Shown here: piece by piece, positions 22,465-38,335 of the stretch
How positions within the stretch are numbered: the first letter of the stretch is position 1
Layout of the letters: each line of letters begins with the position of its first letter
NCBI GenBank assembly: GCA_944325825.1
Contig: CALVBP010000015.1
Location: 1 to 41,818 of the forward strand
Origin: Candidatus Gastranaerophilales bacterium
GTDB taxonomy: Bacteria; Cyanobacteriota; Vampirovibrionia; Gastranaerophilales; Gastranaerophilaceae
Direction of reading: 5' to 3'
DNA: 41,818 bases
Program-made: the position numbers and the translations under genes
The notes under the pieces: generated by a model
Told to the model about the DNA's origin: nothing
The model's database searches: none
Seen by the model: only the letters and a program-made list of their open reading frames with translations

Positions 22465-23733
22465 ATGGAAAGATTAGTTGGTTTAATAGGTATAGCAGTG
22501 ATTTTTGGGATAGCCTATGCAATGTCAAATAATAAAAAAGCAATTAACTATAAGACAATAGGAATGGGCTTTTTACTTCAAATTTTACTCGCACTTTTCA
22601 TCTTTAAAGTTCCTTTTGGCAGAAGCATGTTTATGTTTATAGGTGAATTTATCAGAAAAATTCTTGAATTTGCATACGAAGGCGGTTTTTTTGTCTTTGG
22701 GGCATTAATCAATAATGACAAAATCACAGAACTCTTTGGGAAAAGCAACACTATTTTTGCGGTTCAGTTAATTTGTTCAAATATATTTATGATGGTTCTG
22801 GTTAATATTTTGTACTATTACGGAATTATGCAGCGAATTGTAGCAGCTCTTGGCAAAGCAATGAATAAATTTATGCACGTATCAGGGGCAGAGGCTCTCT
22901 CCAATGTCGCAAGTGCATTTGTGGGACAAATCGTTGCTCAAATTATGATTAAACCGTATTTAGAAAAGCTGACACGTTCTGAGCTGCTTGCTTCAATGGC
23001 TGGAAGCATGGCATGTATTTCGGGTGCAATAATGCCTATTTATATAAGTATGGGCATACCTGCTACATATTTATTAGCCTCTTCTGTTATGGCTGCTCCG
23101 GGAGCGCTGATTTTAACTAAAATAGTATATCCTGAAACAGGAGAACCGGAAACAAGAGATAATATAAGAATTTCTAAAAGAAAAACTTTTACAAATGTTT
23201 TTGAAGCCATTTCTAATGGGGCATCAGAAGGCATGAAAGTTGCAATTAATGTAACAGCTATGATTTTAGCTCTAGTTGCGCTGGTTGCATTTATCGACTG
23301 GATTTTAAAGCTCTCCGGCATATTTTTATATAACTATATACCGGGTTTTTCACATATGGGATTTTTACCTCACTTATCATTAAAATTTATTCTGGGCAAA
23401 ATATTTGCAATATTTGCAATAGTTTTAGGCGTTCCATTACATGATGCATCAGCAGTAGGTGCACTAATGGGAACAAAACTCGTGCTCAATGAAATGGTTG
23501 CGTATGTTCAGCTATCTCATATATCAAGCGTAATTGATCCTAAAAGCTTTATGATTGCCAGTTTTGCATTATGCAGTTTTGGTAACTTCGGTTCCATTGC
23601 AATACAAATTGGCGGTATTGGCGAACTGGCTCCTAATCAGAAAAAGAATTTAGCGAGATTAGGTTTAAGGGCTCTTATTTGCGGAACATTGAGTTGTTAT
23701 TTATCAGCCGCAATTGTAGGGGTGCTATTATAA
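22465..23733 (+). CDS. Concentrative nucleoside transporter (CNT/NupC family)
   Basis: A 422-residue polytopic membrane protein that imports nucleosides with H+ or Na+. Family landmarks are GFLLQILLALFIFKVPFGR, the re-entrant-loop region FVGQIVAQIMIKPYLEKLTRSELLASMAGSMACISGAIMPIYISMG, SSVMAAPGALILTKIVYPE, AISNGASEGMKVAINVTAMILALVALVAFID and ASFALCSFGNFGSIAIQIGGIGELAPNQK. About ten hydrophobic segments are visible. Specificity cannot be read from the sequence. It has its own promoter and AAAGGAG; its 3' end overlaps a convergent small gene by six bases. With the uridine kinase-like protein at 9800 it could make up a nucleoside salvage route (inference). Confidence 0.95.
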   Translation: MERLVGLIGIAVIFGIAYAMSNNKKAINYKTIGMGFLLQILLALFIFKVPFGRSMFMFIGEFIRKILEFAYEGGFFVFGALINNDKITELFGKSNTIFAVQLICSNIFMMVLVNILYYYGIMQRIVAALGKAMNKFMHVSGAEALSNVASAFVGQIVAQIMIKPYLEKLTRSELLASMAGSMACISGAIMPIYISMGIPATYLLASSVMAAPGALILTKIVYPETGEPETRDNIRISKRKTFTNVFEAISNGASEGMKVAINVTAMILALVALVAFIDWILKLSGIFLYNYIPGFSHMGFLPHLSLKFILGKIFAIFAIVLGVPLHDASAVGALMGTKLVLNEMVAYVQLSHISSVIDPKSFMIASFALCSFGNFGSIAIQIGGIGELAPNQKKNLARLGLRALICGTLSCYLSAAIVGVLL

Positions 23734-23994
23734 ACAACCGAGTTCTTCTTCAATAATCGTATTAATATCTTTCAGGTTTTTTACTCTGTCAAGAGCAATT
23801 GAAAGCATATTTATATAATTATTTCGCTCTTCACTCAAATGCCTTTTTTTCTCTTCTGGTAAATTATAATATTGAGAACTTACCTCTCTGTCTAAGCATG
23901 ATTCTTTTGTTAATTTTATAATGCTTTCAAGCAAAAATAATTCATCAAATGTAGTTTGAAAACATGACAATATTTTCTTATGGTCCTTTTCCAT
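23728..23994 (-). CDS. Small helical protein of unknown function
   Basis: An 88-residue, mostly helical, charged protein with two cysteines near the ends (SCF, GCL) and no membrane segment. The core YYNLPEEKKRHLSEERNNYINMLSIALDRVKNL reads like one conserved helical hairpin. The ATG at 23994 has a near-perfect AGGAGG eight bases upstream, the best ribosome binding site in the region, which supports a real gene. It converges on the nucleoside transporter with a six-base overlap. I recognise no family. Confidence 0.75.
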   Translation of the reverse strand: MEKDHKKILSCFQTTFDELFLLESIIKLTKESCLDREVSSQYYNLPEEKKRHLSEERNNYINMLSIALDRVKNLKDINTIIEEELGCL

Positions 23995-24096: not shown

Positions 24097-25188
24097 TTAT
24101 TTACATGTTATAAAAGCATTCAAATACTGAATCAACTCATTAAAACTTACATTATTAGGAGTTTTAAGCCTTTTTATAAGATATTCATCAATTGTTGAAA
24201 GAATTTCAAGAAAAGTAGATTCCGATAAGTTATTATCAAGATAATCTTCATAAATATTCAATAAATATGCAAAAGTATCTTCTCCGCCATGCATTTTTAC
24301 CTGGATTAAAGCTTTTCGTATGTTTTCATTATTAATATTAACATTTAATAAATCCCTGTAATTACAAGCTGAATGTATAATTTTAGAAATTAAAATATCC
24401 TCCGGGATATATTGAAGCATAGTTTCAAAATAATTTACAAAATTCTCGTATAATTTATTTTCATCAAAATGCTCAAGACTAAATTTTGTAATAAAATAAT
24501 CACGTAAAAAAATCTCAAAATCCGATTTGTTGGGAAAAATCTTTAATAAGTTTTTCCATTCATCAACTATTCCGATATTTTTTAAATAATCTCTTATTAA
24601 TGCAAATTGGTCTAATTTGTGAGAATCCTGTTTTAAAGCATAATAGACATCTCTTTGTATTTCCGGCTCGACAACTGCCGTTATTACATAAACACGTTGG
24701 AGCATTTTAAAGATATTTGCAGCCAGTAATTTTTCTTCTTTAATTTTCACCCAATAATTATGAAGAAGCTGAAACATTTTCGACTCTTTTTCTTTTCCGG
24801 AAAGCCTTTCCCCATTTATTATTTTGTCATACAACTCCTGATTACGTCCGGATAGTCTTAATTTACTTCTGTTTCCATTTAAAAGATACTTTGAGCGTAT
24901 AGTTTTTATGGCCCGATCATTTCTTTCAGATGTTTTTTTATAGCATTCGCATATTGCATGCAATAGCAAGGATAAGGAAACTATACGATTGAGTCCATCG
25001 ACAATGGCATATTGATCAAGAGTTAGCGGAGAGTAGTAAATTATTCCGAGCTGAATTTTTTGTGTGAATTGCTCATCAACATTTAACAAATCAAGAATAT
25101 TTACCAGATTATTATTAAATCCGGCATATTCTATATCACAGATATCTCTTGTATTATGTAAAAAATCAAGTAAATTAACTATTTCCAT
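24097..25188 (-). CDS. DUF262 (GmrSD N-terminal)-like protein with altered DGQQR
   Basis: A 363-residue protein that resembles DUF262 in order and spacing: a strand ending LGIIYY, then QYAIVDGLNRIVSLSLLLHAI (residues 59-79) in place of the usual DGQQRLTTL helix, KLRLSGRNQELYDKIINGE, and MLQRVYVITAVVEPEIQRDVYYALKQDSHKLDQFALIRDYL in place of the iFe.lN..G..L...DLIkn segment. DUF262 proteins, such as the GmrS half of GmrSD and BrxU, use DGQQR for nucleotide hydrolysis in phage restriction. Here D64, G65 and R68 remain but QQ is LN, and the upstream RPYxW motif and the DUF1524 HNH nuclease domain are absent. I start it at the ATG at 25188, one base after the upstream stop; a longer frame to 25245 would overlap that gene by 56 bases. 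Confidence 0.55.
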   Translation of the reverse strand: MEIVNLLDFLHNTRDICDIEYAGFNNNLVNILDLLNVDEQFTQKIQLGIIYYSPLTLDQYAIVDGLNRIVSLSLLLHAICECYKKTSERNDRAIKTIRSKYLLNGNRSKLRLSGRNQELYDKIINGERLSGKEKESKMFQLLHNYWVKIKEEKLLAANIFKMLQRVYVITAVVEPEIQRDVYYALKQDSHKLDQFALIRDYLKNIGIVDEWKNLLKIFPNKSDFEIFLRDYFITKFSLEHFDENKLYENFVNYFETMLQYIPEDILISKIIHSACNYRDLLNVNINNENIRKALIQVKMHGGEDTFAYLLNIYEDYLDNNLSESTFLEILSTIDEYLIKRLKTPNNVSFNELIQYLNAFITCK

Positions 25189-25189
25189 A

Positions 25190-25834
25190 TTACTCAGTAA
25201 GAACAAATCCGCCGGAAGGGACATTTTTAAGCTTGTCACCTTCAATCTTAGCTCTTAAGTTTTTAATATATTTATAAACATAATCTCTTGGCAAGTCTAA
25301 GAGTTCTGCCAAATCTTTAGCAAATACTGTTTTACCAATGTTATTCAAAAAGTACTCAAATACAAGCTGTTCTCTATCCGTTAAAGACTTTTTTAACACT
25401 ATATTTATATCCGAATGCACGGAAGAATACTCTTCTACTTTATCAAGTAATGACTCTTTTCCAAATGATTTTGGGGCATTTTCACTAAGAGTTTTACCTA
25501 CAAAATCACGAAGCGCATCTTCTTTCTTGTTATATATTTGATTTGATTTAACAGTAATGTTTTCTTGTAAATCTTTTTTAGTTATAGAAAATGGAGTATG
25601 TGAAATTTGGCGTTCTCTTTTAAAAGCTCTTTCTGCAATAGCAGAGAAACTATCACTAATCTCCGTATTTGTATTAGATGAAGTACCCTTTGACATTACA
25701 ATGTCAACGACATCATTAGTAGGTTTACTCTCCTCAACAGTTTTCCCTAATCTTGCTGCAAACTCTTCAAGCGTAATTTTTTCCAAAGAACTTCTCCACT
25801 GTCTTATCTCTTCCTTTGTCAAATAATTAGGCAT
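25190..25834 (-). CDS. Protein with C-terminal winged-helix DNA-binding domain
   Basis: A 214-residue protein. The last 75 residues (LTDREQLVFEYFLNNIGKTVFAKDLAELLDLPRDYVYKYIKNLRAKIEGDKLKNVPSGGFVLTE) follow the OmpR-type winged-helix pattern: a helix after LTxRE, a recognition helix in PRDYVYKYIKNLRAKIE, and a closing beta wing SGGFVL. The first 140 residues are Ser/Thr/Lys-rich with LTKEEIRQWRSSLEKITLEEFAARLGKTVEES at the start; they hold no receiver or catalytic motif that I can see. The ATG at 25834 lies eight bases after GGAG (the preceding TTG is not needed). It ends one base before the DUF262-like start, so the pair is an operon; it may regulate it or guide it to DNA. Confidence 0.7.
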   Translation of the reverse strand: MPNYLTKEEIRQWRSSLEKITLEEFAARLGKTVEESKPTNDVVDIVMSKGTSSNTNTEISDSFSAIAERAFKRERQISHTPFSITKKDLQENITVKSNQIYNKKEDALRDFVGKTLSENAPKSFGKESLLDKVEEYSSVHSDINIVLKKSLTDREQLVFEYFLNNIGKTVFAKDLAELLDLPRDYVYKYIKNLRAKIEGDKLKNVPSGGFVLTE

Positions 25835-25968
25835 CAAATATCTCCTATATTAACCTATGATAGTCTAACTTAATTCCCCTATTGGATTCTTTTATTATAA
25901 TATAATTTATCATAAAATACTTAAAATTTATCAAAATATTTCATGATGTAAAGATTTCTTTTCAAAGC

Positions 25969-32716: not shown

Positions 32717-35700
32717 TTATTCCTTATCTGCTTTTTCATCGCTTACAAGGAGTTCCGGTGCACCAAACATACCTTCAATTTCTTCTAATATTGCAGAAGG
32801 TTTCCTTGCCTGGTTTCTTTGAGCAGCTCTCTTTTGAGCCTCTCTATCACGCTCCTCACTTGCAAATGAAAGGTGATGGAATCCCGTACCTGCTGGTATA
32901 AGGCGACCAATAATAACGTTTTCTTTCAAACCTCTTAACAGGTCTTTCTTACCTTCTACCGCAGCCTCTGTAAGTATTCTTGTAGTTTCTTGGAACGATG
33001 CTGCTGAAATAAAGCTTTCTGTATTCAAAGAAGCCTTTGTAATACCTAAAAGAATATGTTCACAAGTTGCTTCATTTCCGCCGTGTTCTTTAACAGCATT
33101 ATTTTCGTTCTCAAAAGCTTGAACTTCAATAAGTTCGCCAGGAAGTAAATTCGTATCACCGGGATCAACAACACGAACTTTCTTGGTCATCTGACGTACA
33201 ATAATTTCAATATGCTTATCAGCAATTTCAACCCCTTGTGAGCGGTATACACGTTGTACTTCATCAACTAAATACTGTTGTGCTTCCTCAGGACCGCATA
33301 ATCTGATTACATCATGCGGGTTAAGCGGACCGCTTGTTAAAGGCTGACCTTTTTTAATTTTTTGCTTATTTTGAACAACTATACTTGCATCAATAGCAAA
33401 CTTAATCTCGGTTCTTGTACCTTCATCAGATACTAAGAAGAGTCTTGGAACATCATCTTCTATTACAATTTCAGCTGTTCCGTCATACTCTGCTAATATA
33501 GCACAGTCTTTCGGTTTCCTTGCTTCAAGAAGTTCTTCAACTCTCGGAAGACCTTGTACGATATCACCTGTTTTCTCTCTTTCAAATACAAGAGTTGCAA
33601 GCATATCACCTCTTAATACCAGAGAACCTTCTTCAACCTGTAACATAGTACCCGGACTAATCAAGTACGGACGACCGTTTCTAATTGTTACAGATTTTGG
33701 TGTTACATCTACTATCATTCCTGATACAGGAGTAGTTTCACCAGAAGATGCAACTTCTGAATCAAGTTTAATAAAATCGCCTTTTTTAACAGACGGCTTA
33801 GATTTCGTATTTATAACCGTTTCATAATTAGAACAATTAATCAGCAATCTTCTTGATTCAGAAACATCACCTTTAATTGAAGCGACACCATCATTTAATG
33901 CTAATACTTCAGTCTTAGCAACAGGTGTTTTAGGTTCTATTACCTGTCCGTTTTCAACAAGTAAAGCTGTTTGTAATGAACTGTTAAGTTTTGAATTACC
34001 TTCTAATTCACGGCGAACAATCAAAGTCTCAAGAACTACTATCTTAAGTTCACCTTTATTATCAAGCTCAACAAGACCTTTTAAGTGTGACAGGTAACCT
34101 TGCATTTGAAGTACCAAACTTGTTCTTGTTAAAGTTGCACCATCAAGATTTCTAACCCTTGCACCATCTTTATATTGCAATTGAGTTACAGGAACTATAT
34201 TAATCAGTTCATCTGTTGTATTAAATGCAATAGAAACATCTTTTTGCTCAATATGCATAGGTTGTACAGGTCTTACAAGAATTTGAATAGGCTTGTCTTC
34301 AAGAGATTCTTCATCCAAAGATAATGTTGTATCAATTTCTTCGTCTAAATCATCAATATCTAAGTCATCAAAATCCATTTCCATTATAGTAACTATTGAA
34401 GTTTCTTTCGCTTTAATGCCCTTAGCAATAGTTGTACCGGCTTCAACGACAGCACCTTCTTCAACCTTTAGTTCAGAAACATTTGATAATGTATGAACTT
34501 CACCAGGTCTAATTGTTACTTCATGAATAACTTCATTAAATTCTTTAAATTCTACTACACCGTCAATATGGCAGTATACGTCTTTTACGACCTCCGTACC
34601 TGCGGTAACGAAAGTTCCGTTTTCTACCATCTTAAGATTTGAGTCTTTATTAATTTGATGAACTTCTTCCGGTACAAATACGATTGTGCCTGGTTTTGTT
34701 ACAATCTGATTGTCATCAACTTCAACATCGACATATCTTATTTCACCTGATGATGTAACAGCACACTCATCATCGACGAGCTCGGCAATAATCATACCAT
34801 TTTCTACTGTTGTATCTACAGGAGCTTTGACAATATATTTTTCACCGGTTTTCTTAACTGTCCATAATTGTTCTTTCTTAGTTTGTTCAAATACAGCATT
34901 TGAAGGCATAAGAGATGCAATTACAATAGTTATTTCTTTACCGTGAACAATTTTATTAATTTTATTTTTACCGGATTTAACAACCTCAACTTCAAGGTCC
35001 TCAGCATATCTAACTTCACCGCCGTGTTCAGAAATCATCAGCGTTTCAGCCAATTTATCTCCTGATTTAACTTTCTGTTCGTCAGCTACAAGAACTTTTG
35101 AACCGCCTGGCAGGTTATAAACATCTCCGCCAATAATCCAAACAATACCGTTCTTGTTTGCCGTTCTTGAAATATTACCTTGTCTGTCTTTCTTTTCATC
35201 AGCGACAAAATCTTCAAAAAGAACTTCACCGGACATATCAGAGTTAATATCCTTGGTAGCTTTTTCGGTCAAACGGCCGGAATCATTTGCAGAAGGTTTA
35301 AATTCTGCAAGTTTATAATCTTTTTCAATTTTTTGTCCGTTTTCAAAGAAGATAGTTGCACCTGCAGGAATATGATATTTTTCTTTTTTCTTGCCGCTTG
35401 ATACTTCAATATCAGCTTCATAAATTGAAACTTTAACAATATCACCGTGACGTGTTCTTAACTCTCTTGTTTTAATATCAGAAGAAACCGTTCCTGCTGC
35501 ATTTGCGTGTATTTCTCTTGTTGCTTCTTTAACTCCGACAGCACCACCTGTGTGGAATGTTCTCATCGTAAGCTGAGTACCAGGTTCACCGATTGACTGA
35601 GCTGCAATAATACCAATTGCTTCACCAACATCAACAAGTTTTTGAGTTGTAAGAGCCCAACCGTAACATTTTTGGCAAACACCGTATTCAAGTCCGCAAG

Positions 35701-36622
35701 TTAAGCCTGAACGAACTTTTAATTCTTGCAGATTCAAATGTGCAATCTTCTTAATATCTTTTCTGTCCATTGTAGTATTTTTAGCTACTAACAATGTTTT
35801 ACCGTCTTCATCATAAATATCCTGAGCAACTGTTCTTCCTAATAATCTGTCAATAAGCGGAACGATTACGTTGTCACCATCGCAAATAGACTTCATATTA
35901 ATGCATTTATCAGTACCGCAGTCTGTATCTCTGATAATAACATCTTGAGCTACATCAACAAGACGTCTTGTCAAATATCCTGAGTCAGCAGTTTTAAGAG
36001 CTGTATCTACAAGACCTTTACGAGCACCGTATGAAGAAATGATGTATTCTGTTACAGAAAGACCTTCTTTGAAGTTTGAAGTAATAGGCATGTCAACAAT
36101 TTGACCTTGTGCGTCAGCCATCAAACCTCTCATACCAACCAACTGTGATACCTGTGACAAGTTACCTCTCGCTCCGGAGAATGCCATCATATAAACAGGA
36201 TTTAATTTGTCAAAGTTTTCAACGACCTGTTCTGTAAGTTTTGCAGTTGTTTCAGACCAGGTATCGATAACTTTTGTATATCTTTCAACTTCAGTGATTT
36301 CACCTTTAAGGTATCTGTTAGTTGATTTTTCAATTTCTGCTTCCGCTTCCTTAAGAAGTTCTTTTTTGGACTCAGGAACTGTAAGGTCAGCAATAGAAAT
36401 TGTTACACCTGATTTAGTTGCATATTTATACCCGAGGTTTTTCAAAGTATCTGCAAGTTCTGCAGTCTTTGCACCGCCAAACTCAAGATATATCTGTGCA
36501 AGAAGCTTATTCAAACCTTTTTTGTCCATTTGTTTATTAATGAACTCGGGTGTATGAGTTTTTGCATGTGTATAAGTGTTTTCCATCTTTATATATTCCT
36601 CAATTTCTTTTTCTCTATTCAT
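32717..36622 (-). CDS. rpoC2: RNA polymerase beta' subunit, C-terminal part (RpoC2)
   Basis: The 1301-residue downstream half of beta'. It begins where cyanobacterial RpoC2 begins ([15 protein letters not shown], then [33 protein letters not shown]). It holds [17 protein letters not shown] (about 141-157), the zinc cysteines C235, C309, C316 and C319, the bridge helix/trigger loop region [25 protein letters not shown] (about 337-360), and a C-terminal region resuming at [19 protein letters not shown] (1019). About 650 residues are inserted between. The ATG at 36622 is three bases after the rpoC1 stop; another in-frame ATG at 36586 has GAGG 11 bases upstream, so the exact start is uncertain. 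The C-terminus ends Glu/Lys-rich (SDEKADKE). Both parts are needed for an active enzyme. Confidence 0.96.
33569..35515 (-). other. SI3-like insertion domain inside RpoC2
   Basis: Residues about 370-1018 interrupt beta' after the trigger loop, at the position of lineage-specific insertion SI3. It consists of repeated beta-hairpin modules of the sandwich-barrel hybrid type (for example [56 protein letters not shown]), with an acidic stretch [15 protein letters not shown] near residue 750. The length is close to the roughly 650 residues of cyanobacterial SI3 and far beyond the 190 or so of E. coli. Boundaries are by eye. Confidence 0.75.
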
Positions 36623-36625
36623 TAA

Positions 36626-38335
36626 TTAGGCTAGCGCTTTTCTAACAGCTTCATTGAATATGATTCTACCCACTGTAGTTTCTATTCTCTTACCTTTTTC
36701 ATCTCGCACTACAATTTTATCGTGAAGCGTTATAACTTTAGCTTCCAATGCGGCAATCGCATCTTCAAAGCTATAGAAATAGCCTTTCACTTCTTGTTCA
36801 GGGTCTTTCAATATCGTTAAATAGTAGAGACCGAGAACCATATCTTGTGAGTGAGTAATGATAGGTTTGCCGTTAGCCGGTGCAAGAATATTGTTAGTAG
36901 CTAACATAAGCATTCTTGCTTCAGTTTGAGCCTCAATTGAAAGTGGAACGTGAACAGCCATTTGGTCACCGTCAAAGTCAGCGTTGAATGCCGTACATAC
37001 CAGAGGGTGAAGTTGAATAGCTCTGCCTTCAACCAGCTTAGGTTCAAATGCCTGAATACCTAATCTGTGCAGGGTCGGAGCACGGTTCAATAATACAGGA
37101 TGTCCATCAATAATCTCTTCTAAGATATCCCAAACTTTAGCATCCGAGCGTTCAATCATTTTCTTAGCAGATTTAATGTTTTGAACATATCCTCTTTCAA
37201 TAAGTTTATTAACAACGAATGGTTTGAATAATTCAATTGCCATTTCTTTTGGTAAACCGCACTGGTTAAGTTTCAATGACGGACCTACAACAATAACAGA
37301 ACGACCTGAGTAATCAACACGCTTACCTAATAAGTTTTGACGGAAACGTCCTTGTTTACCTTCAATAATATTAGATAAAGATTTTAATGCTCTGTTATTA
37401 GGTCCAACAACAGTTCTTCCTCTTCTCCCGTTATCAATAAGAGCATCAACAGCTTCCTGAAGCATACGTTTTTCGTTTCTTACAATAATCTCAGGAGCTC
37501 CCATTTCCAGAAGTCTCTGCAGACGATTATTTCTGTTAATAACCCTTCTGTATAAGTCGTTCAAATCAGATGTTGCAAATCTGCCGCCGTCTAATTGAAC
37601 CATCGGTCTTAAATCAGGCGGTGTTACAGGTAGAACATCCATAATCATCCAGGTAGGATCTGTCTCAGAAGAGATTAATGAATCAAGAAGTCTTAACCTC
37701 TTAATTAATTTACCTTTTCTTTGTACAGATGTTACATGCCCGGCCAATTCAGAGCGGATTTCCTCAGCAAGATCTTTTACATTTATTTCACTTAACAGTT
37801 TCTTAATAGCTTCTGCACCAATGCCGACTTCAAGCTTTGATTCTTCATTTTCCATCATAAAGTCTTCGTACTCTTCTTCACTCAGAAGCTGGAGCTTTTT
37901 GAACGGACTATCGGCAGGATCTATTACAACATAGTTATTGAAATATATAACCTGTTCTAAATCCTTCAGTGTCATATCAAGAAGCAAACCAAGATAAGAA
38001 GGAATACCTTTTAAGAACCAGATATGAGAAACAGGAGCTGCAAGAGCAATGTGTCCCATTCTGTGACGTCTTACTTTAGAATCAGTAACCTCAACGCCGC
38101 ATCTTTCGCAGATAATACCTTTATGTCTTACTCTTTTATATTTACCGCAATAGCATTCCCAATCCTTTGTAGGACCAAAAATTCTTTCGCAGAACAAACC
38201 GTCTCTTTCCGGTTTTAAAGTTCTATAATTAATTGTTTCAGGTTTTGTAACCTCACCGTATGACCACTTCAAAATTCTTTCGGGTGAAGCGATGCTGATA
38301 CGTATATAATCAAAATAATCAATACTTGTAGACAA
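36626..38335 (-). CDS. rpoC1: RNA polymerase beta' subunit, N-terminal part (RpoC1, gamma)
   Basis: The 569-residue upstream half of beta'. It opens with [40 protein letters not shown], has the zinc-binding cysteines C61, C63, C76 and C79, the lid/rudder region, [16 protein letters not shown], and the catalytic metal loop [12 protein letters not shown] with D453, D455 and D457. It ends [18 protein letters not shown], the cyanobacterial RpoC1 end-point. It is somewhat shorter than the typical 620 or so residues of cyanobacterial RpoC1. The start is TTG at 38335 with a strong AAGGAG eight to nine bases upstream, an unusual start for a core gene. Confidence 0.97.

Follow-up and report, generated by a model that had tools for sequence, protein, structure and literature searches.

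The closest described relatives of the locus analysed here are restriction proteins in which a DUF262 domain senses DNA and binds nucleotide. According to Machnicka et al., a DGQQR motif is present in nearly 100% of GmrS sequences, together with a QR and an FxxxN motif (PMC4619093). In SspE, D96 and R100 of DGQQR contact docked GTP and an R100A substitution abolishes hydrolysis, while sensing of the phosphorothioate mark falls to Y30 and Q31 (PMC9646914); alignment with SspE places the latter two residues in the QR motif. An R87A change in DndI removes ATPase activity and Y25A removes the response to the mark; the presence of the N-terminal domain makes the remaining protein bind DNA less tightly (PMC11662687). 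The N-terminal domains of both proteins are described as using NTP hydrolysis to tune how tightly the attached C-terminal domain binds DNA (PMC9646914, PMC11662687). Some known systems employ DUF262 proteins lacking DUF1524, of which a review gives Menshen and Dazbog as examples (PMC10952713).

The window, a stretch of 41,818 nucleotides, is contig 15 of a genome of 1.85 Mb that is 95% complete and whose relatives are mostly Candidatus Gastranaerophilales, Melainabacteria or uncultured genomes, several of them from rumen or gut samples. It holds a real, conserved and vertically inherited gene pair that joins an OmpR-type regulator to a restriction-derived DUF262 protein without nuclease and without DNA-mark sensor. 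A literature search of open-licence papers found no earlier report of a winged-helix/DUF262 pair. The features are as follows.

24097..25188, minus strand: DUF262/GmrS-derived protein of 363 aa lacking an HNH nuclease domain (coordinates include the stop codon)
24583..25188, minus strand: N-terminal ParB/Srx-like DUF262 domain, residues 1–202, QR motif lost (PF03235 match at 47–202 plus motif alignment)
24985..24999, minus strand: DGLNR, residues 64–68, equivalent of the nucleotide-binding DGQQR (ortholog comparison)
24100..24582, minus strand: helical middle domain, residues 203–363, the sole part retained in C-terminal-only relatives from seven other genera
25190..25834, minus strand: winged-helix regulator, 214 aa, ATG to stop (N-terminal block 1–47, variable linker, C-terminal winged helix)
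25193..25387, minus strand: OmpR/PhoB-type winged helix, residues 150–214 (Trans_reg_C; pLDDT 87–94; PhoP DNA-binding domain at Z 10.0)
25932..25952, minus strand: conserved DNA element TTTACRTYRYGAAAYATTTTG 5′ of the winged-helix gene, a proposed operator or promoter element

A single base separates the winged-helix stop codon from the ATG of the DUF262 gene. An alternative TTG start of the latter at 25245 would overlap the winged-helix gene; the orthologs start at the ATG. Spacing between the two genes is −1 to +5 bases in 58/58 named loci holding both, and given this constancy the arrangement is far from chance. The initial annotation, made from the letters alone, had already recorded both reading frames, the one-base gap, the DGLNR and the missing HNH domain, all of which hold. 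Our leading reading, tentative and held at slightly less than even confidence, is that a restriction-family protein devoid of nuclease and sensor has been exapted to serve a winged-helix transcription factor specific to the Gastranaerophilales as its dedicated accessory subunit.

An AlphaFold2 model of the DUF262 protein, computed from 58 sequences (the window protein and those of related loci), reached a pLDDT of 90.4 and a pTM of 0.81 and is predicted to place a ParB/Srx-like domain ahead of a set of helices, the order that defines the DUF262 fold. A Foldseek search with this model returned DndI alone at E ≤ 0.001 (9.4e-8 and 1.7e-7 for two chains; prob 1.00). In structure comparison, DndI scored Z 17.4 over model residues 1–363 and SspE Z 13.4–14.6, with the best unrelated chain at Z 7.8 and BrxU aligning over residues 185–362 at Z 5.3. 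The superposition rmsd is high, 7.3 for DndI and about 17 for SspE, which means that the domains are positioned differently. The DndI match stops at residue 435 of about 596; judged by the model, the whole DUF262 chain corresponds to the NTPase and helical portions of DndI and SspE. The initial annotation had read DUF262 from the order of segments, and comparison with solved structures upheld a true DUF262 fold without nuclease, with DndI and SspE as its closest solved folds and BrxU as a partial match. Sequence profiles are less generous. GmrSD_N (PF03235) matches residues 47–202 with E 9.8e-6 and 26.3 bits, under the curated cut-off of 33.2; among the four paired relatives scanned from other genera, L173 passes (35.9), L174 equals the cut-off as printed (33.2), L172 falls below it (24.2) and L171 has no match. 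GmrSD_C/HNH (PF07510, DUF1524) matched neither the protein, which ends at residue 363, nor its scanned neighbours, and a sequence search of solved structures with both family profiles gave nothing at E ≤ 0.001.

On sequence comparison, the clearest loss is that of the QR motif, the seat of the mark-sensing residues in SspE and DndI. It is absent from all paired proteins aligned and present in L084, L086, L087, L185 and L189; the upstream motif that the initial annotation had found missing, under the name RPYxW, is this QR-type IPxxQRxYxW. At the nucleotide site, the D, G and fifth-position R of DGQQR are retained (DGxxR) in 59/60 orthologs, with both Q positions variable and DGQQR itself never found. 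Residues important for hydrolysis are thus largely kept, whereas those that sense modified DNA are lost, and the pocket may still bind nucleotide. The lone ortholog without DGxxR, a genus member (L161, the same as L007), carries GGLSG, and the paired protein of genus g46 carries EGIQK; these two losses mean that nucleotide binding may be dispensable. At the FxxxN motif, the window protein reads YYALK, with K for N, while most orthologs retain the N (Y..LN). Its deviation from all three motifs (DGQQR, QR and FxxxN), together with its PF03235 score below cut-off, counts against the accessory-subunit reading. A changed or absent NTPase, which the initial annotation had put forward as the main change, is too strong a description of a site that keeps D, G and R in nearly every ortholog; its word "repurposed" fits the evidence.

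The AlphaFold2 model of the winged-helix protein is confident only at residues 150–214 (pLDDT 87–94), the first 140 residues consisting of a short helical block and a low-confidence linker. Its Trans_reg_C match (E 5.8e-5, 23.5 bits) lies under the cut-off of 26.2, and the effector domains of PhoP, DrrB and CovR superpose at Z 9.6–10.0. ScpB and biotin-ligase winged helices score about equally, so the fold alone is not decisive, and it is the sub-threshold Pfam match that points to OmpR. Taken together, the domain has the character of an OmpR/PhoB-type winged-helix effector, in agreement with the initial annotation; the Pfam scan of the protein gave no match to a receiver domain. The Ser/Thr-rich front described in the same annotation holds as a modest enrichment (20% S/T in residues 1–140, 8% in 141–214), but the label masks an N-terminal block, about 47 residues long, that is conserved. 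This block (residues 1–47; 25694–25834, minus strand; YLTKEEIRQWRSSLEKITLEEFAARLGK...) is about as conserved family-wide as the winged helix itself, co-occurs with it across the order, belongs to no Pfam family above cut-off, and could have an invariant binding partner. Nowhere in the winged-helix protein did a segment show conservation restricted to loci with the DUF262 partner, and this too counts against a dedicated partnership.

Within the genus the pair is single-copy and nearly universal. The DUF262-like gene occurs in 61/65 genomes and the winged-helix gene in 59/65; among the 42 good genomes (≥90% complete, ≤5% contaminated), 41 have each gene and one (G006) is without both. Across a phylum sample of 386 genomes, the DUF262-like profile finds 67, of which 12 belong to the genus, a further 31 to the family, another 3 to the order and 21 to other parts of the phylum. 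The 31 comprise seven genomes with a full-length gene of the paired type (four in g31, one each in g35, g44 and g46), 23 from seven genera with C-terminal-only matches (one of which, G343, also has a 592-aa protein), and one (G129) with a canonical 584-aa DUF262-HNH protein; the C-terminal-only class was assigned by inspecting the sequences for 12/23 and by match range and frame length for the others. All 19 paired-type genes in the phylum sample adjoin a winged-helix gene. Of the C-terminal-only genes, 17/23 lie on a different contig from the winged-helix gene, and four of the other six (L180, L182, L184 and L187) show none in the surrounding 5 kb or so. For the winged-helix gene, the count is 172/386 phylum-sample genomes and 48/57 close relatives, all within the order; the gene was not found in other orders of the class among the genomes listed. 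The relationship is therefore asymmetric: many genera have the winged-helix gene but no partner, among them g37, the sister of g44, where the DUF262 gene is absent, and the paired form was never seen without the winged-helix gene. The initial annotation had asked whether the pair is kept together in related genomes, and it is. The same annotation would have taken universality in the order, among purely housekeeping neighbours, as a sign against its proposal; this came true by half, the winged-helix gene being nearly order-wide and the neighbours housekeeping.

These distributions bear on two other explanations. The pair may merely be co-transcribed, with the DUF262-derived protein performing a housekeeping role of its own through the helical domain it has in common with the C-terminal-only relatives. 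We consider this unlikely, yet a serious contender: those relatives, in seven genera, keep the helical domain only and not near a winged-helix gene, and the mirror-tree analysis described below finds no special link, but adjacency in 19/19 cases over five genera with different flanks, and the narrow spacing in every named locus, speak against it. A toxin–antitoxin-like pair, in which the winged-helix protein would neutralise and autoregulate a DUF262-derived toxin, appears quite improbable. The two-gene unit with the regulator first, the near-overlapping frames and the conserved upstream element would suit such a system; the missing nuclease domain, the wide occurrence of the winged-helix gene without partner, and a single copy that is not patchy within the genus would not. 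A hidden DUF262 gene replacing the partner elsewhere in the order was also considered and rejected. At ten loci of other families, sequence inspection showed the genes downstream of the winged-helix gene to resemble rsmI, truB or sugar epimerase/dehydratase genes and not DUF262; within the same family, other genera also carry unrelated genes there, as judged by profile search and inspection of some.

Relatives of the window protein form a series of intact DUF262-only, degenerate paired and C-terminal-only forms. The DUF262-only proteins of sister families (377–426 aa) have intact QR, DGQQR and FxSLNSTG motifs, and the three that were scanned pass the Pfam cut-off. The C-terminal-only proteins (185–240 aa; L176–L184, L186, L187 and L190; seven genera) consist of the helical middle domain without the NTPase domain; they align to profile positions from about 175–211 to 346–364, and neither of the two that were scanned had a Pfam match above cut-off. 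They resemble L084 at E values down to 1e-44, and several share a tail ending in a TIN-type motif. At the C-terminal-only locus of g41 (L178), two further genes are 67% and 65% identical to counterparts at the L084 locus, which belongs to another family; this indicates that both loci descend from one ancestral locus and that the N-terminal domain was deleted in g41. In a protein tree of 30 rows, with long branches and three canonical outgroup sequences, the paired proteins are united in a single clade (98/99), intact DUF262-only proteins fall with the canonical ones, and the C-terminal-only proteins take a position in between, partly unresolved. The branching of the paired proteins agrees broadly with the winged-helix tree, in which the paired genera occupy one 29-row part of the family and the distribution requires three changes, readable as one gain and two losses.

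Both genes are under purifying selection. By the Nei–Gojobori method, applied to 55 and 53 sequences after truncated and distant loci were dropped and with most pairs excluded as saturated, dN/dS has a median of 0.046 for the DUF262 gene (seven usable close pairs, range 0.016–0.329) and of 0.168 for the winged-helix gene (18 close pairs). It is very improbable that the DUF262 gene is a decaying restriction relic heading for loss and riding 3′ of a core regulator. Its intermediate place in a series running from intact through C-terminal-only to absent would agree with decay, as would the missing partner in g37, but five of the seven close pairs lie at 0.016–0.061 (the others at 0.184 and 0.329), the gene is full-length in 57/61 genus genomes (one of them with an internal TAG; the other four genes are partial or split), and 33 columns are invariant over 58 aligned sequences. 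A mirror-tree analysis over the 28/52 loci with all seven genes present gave a partial correlation between the DUF262 and winged-helix proteins of 0.23, with 19/500 permutations as high; those of the DUF262 protein with SPOR and QueC were 0.41 and 0.44. The analysis thus carries no signal of special co-evolution, and this counts against the accessory-subunit reading. So does a contrast within one species pair, L126 and L127, whose DUF262 genes barely differ (dS 0.07) while their winged-helix genes do (dS 0.73): the alleles may have been exchanged separately, which suggests recombination between species inside the pair.

The 21-base element 5′ of the winged-helix gene has at most one mismatch in 49/54 genus loci and two or three in the other five, while composition shuffles of the comparison never fell below four. 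It recurs with zero or one mismatch in 5/5 paired loci of other genera. At 20 unpaired loci of the same family, it shows zero or one mismatch in eight, two in five and three in two, and is absent (5–9 mismatches) in five. Its presence before unpaired winged-helix genes of other genera counts against the accessory-subunit reading. A genome search found one exact match and eight others with three mismatches, compared with five for a reversed control pattern, and on these grounds no regulon is indicated. It is a reasonable guess that the winged-helix protein autoregulates through this element, the alternative being a plain conserved promoter. The leader between element and start codon (about 25835–25920) is strongly conserved in the genus; an Rfam scan of the window returned tRNA only and left the leader without a match.

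The surroundings are those of housekeeping genes. In 20 genus loci, the order is HEAT–QueC–DUF366–SPOR–winged helix–DUF262, then a small gene at 23728 and a nucleoside transporter downstream, with a minority broken by contig ends or rearrangements; in g31, g35, g44 and g46 the flanking genes differ and the pair stays together. The small gene (23728–23994, minus strand) encodes an 88-aa protein that sits beside the pair in most genus loci at 31–76% identity and whose only Pfam match, to a coiled coil, stays below threshold. Farther on, the window contains folD and a split rpoC with rpoB, the RNA polymerase β′ subunit occupying two adjacent frames of 1301 and 569 aa (32717–38335, minus strand). 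Such a split β′ is the cyanobacterial arrangement.

That the pair is still an active defence or modified-DNA-sensing module, with the winged helix recognising DNA, is very unlikely. PADLOC profile PDLC02693 does match the DUF262 protein (E 4.1e-20), and DUF262 proteins without DUF1524 do serve in the Menshen and Dazbog systems named in the review cited above (PMC10952713). Against this stand the lost QR motif, the housekeeping context, vertical and near-universal inheritance in the genus, and the fact that no nuclease, helicase or OLD partner was seen near the pair. The scanned neighbourhood held no defence gene, although the HEAT protein does match a PADLOC HEAT profile; no relatives were found in viral contigs or phage records, and plasmids gave two weak matches only. 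A location in a defence island, which the initial annotation had wanted checked, was rejected on context, vertical inheritance and absence from viral contigs and phage records; the neighbours of the pair are instead QueC, DUF366, SPOR, HEAT, a nucleoside transporter, folD and rpoB/rpoC.

Returning to the accessory-subunit reading, the observations that speak for it are the fold, the pairing and its asymmetry, near-universality, inheritance, selection, the motifs, the upstream element and the source lineage. On this reading, both proteins would arise from a single transcription unit through near-overlapping translation. The winged-helix protein would bind DNA, plausibly including its own promoter, and the DUF262-fold protein would bind the winged-helix protein and alter the affinity of the latter for DNA and hence, presumably, transcription. 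This effect would perhaps depend on nucleotide at the surviving D-G-x-x-R site. By analogy, it would be the tuning of DNA affinity by the N-terminal domain of SspE and DndI, here exerted in trans. A further proposal, possible but improbable in our estimate, is that a restriction sensor became an intrinsic transcription switch, the DUF262 nucleotide switch gating a separate winged-helix factor in trans, and that sister lineages record both the state before (intact DUF262-only proteins) and an alternative state after (NTPase domain deleted, helical domain kept).

Compared with GmrSD-type enzymes (GmrS = DUF262/PF03235; PADLOC Orf5, HEC-06), the window protein has the same segment order, the same position of DGxxR and a helical region after DUF262. 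It differs in having no GmrD/HNH part and no QR motif and in a DGQQR degenerate at both Q; moreover, its gene is vertically inherited in a housekeeping setting, while GmrSD is a mobile defence gene. DndI (PDB 9JFL) and SspE (PDB 6JIV/7DRS) are the closest solved folds over the whole model and share the D and R of DGQQR, yet the window protein is without their C-terminal HNH nickase, and the motif that carries the phosphorothioate-sensing Y30/Q31 of SspE and Y25 of DndI is gone. The DUF262-only proteins of sister families (L084/L085, L086, L087) likewise combine DUF262 with a helical domain, without HNH and in a chromosomal housekeeping context, but unlike the window protein they retain IPxxQRxYxW (or IPxFQRxFxW), DGQQR and FxSLNSTG, and no winged-helix gene lies next to theirs. 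The C-terminal-only proteins from other genera of the same family have a homologous helical domain, miss the NTPase domain and do not stand beside a winged-helix gene. The regulator, for its part, has the winged-helix fold of OmpR/PhoB-type effector domains (Z up to 10.0), from which it differs by a lineage-specific N-terminal block, a variable linker and no receiver domain found. If the accessory-subunit reading is true, the path of an anti-phage family to a permanent part of the cell can be traced through intact, degenerate and domain-deleted stages, all in one order. GmrSD-type proteins have a helical domain described as a linker; its conservation on its own means that it must do something. 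And since defence-finding profiles match such genes (PADLOC E 4e-20), counts of defence genes can wrongly include housekeeping genes that are nearly universal.
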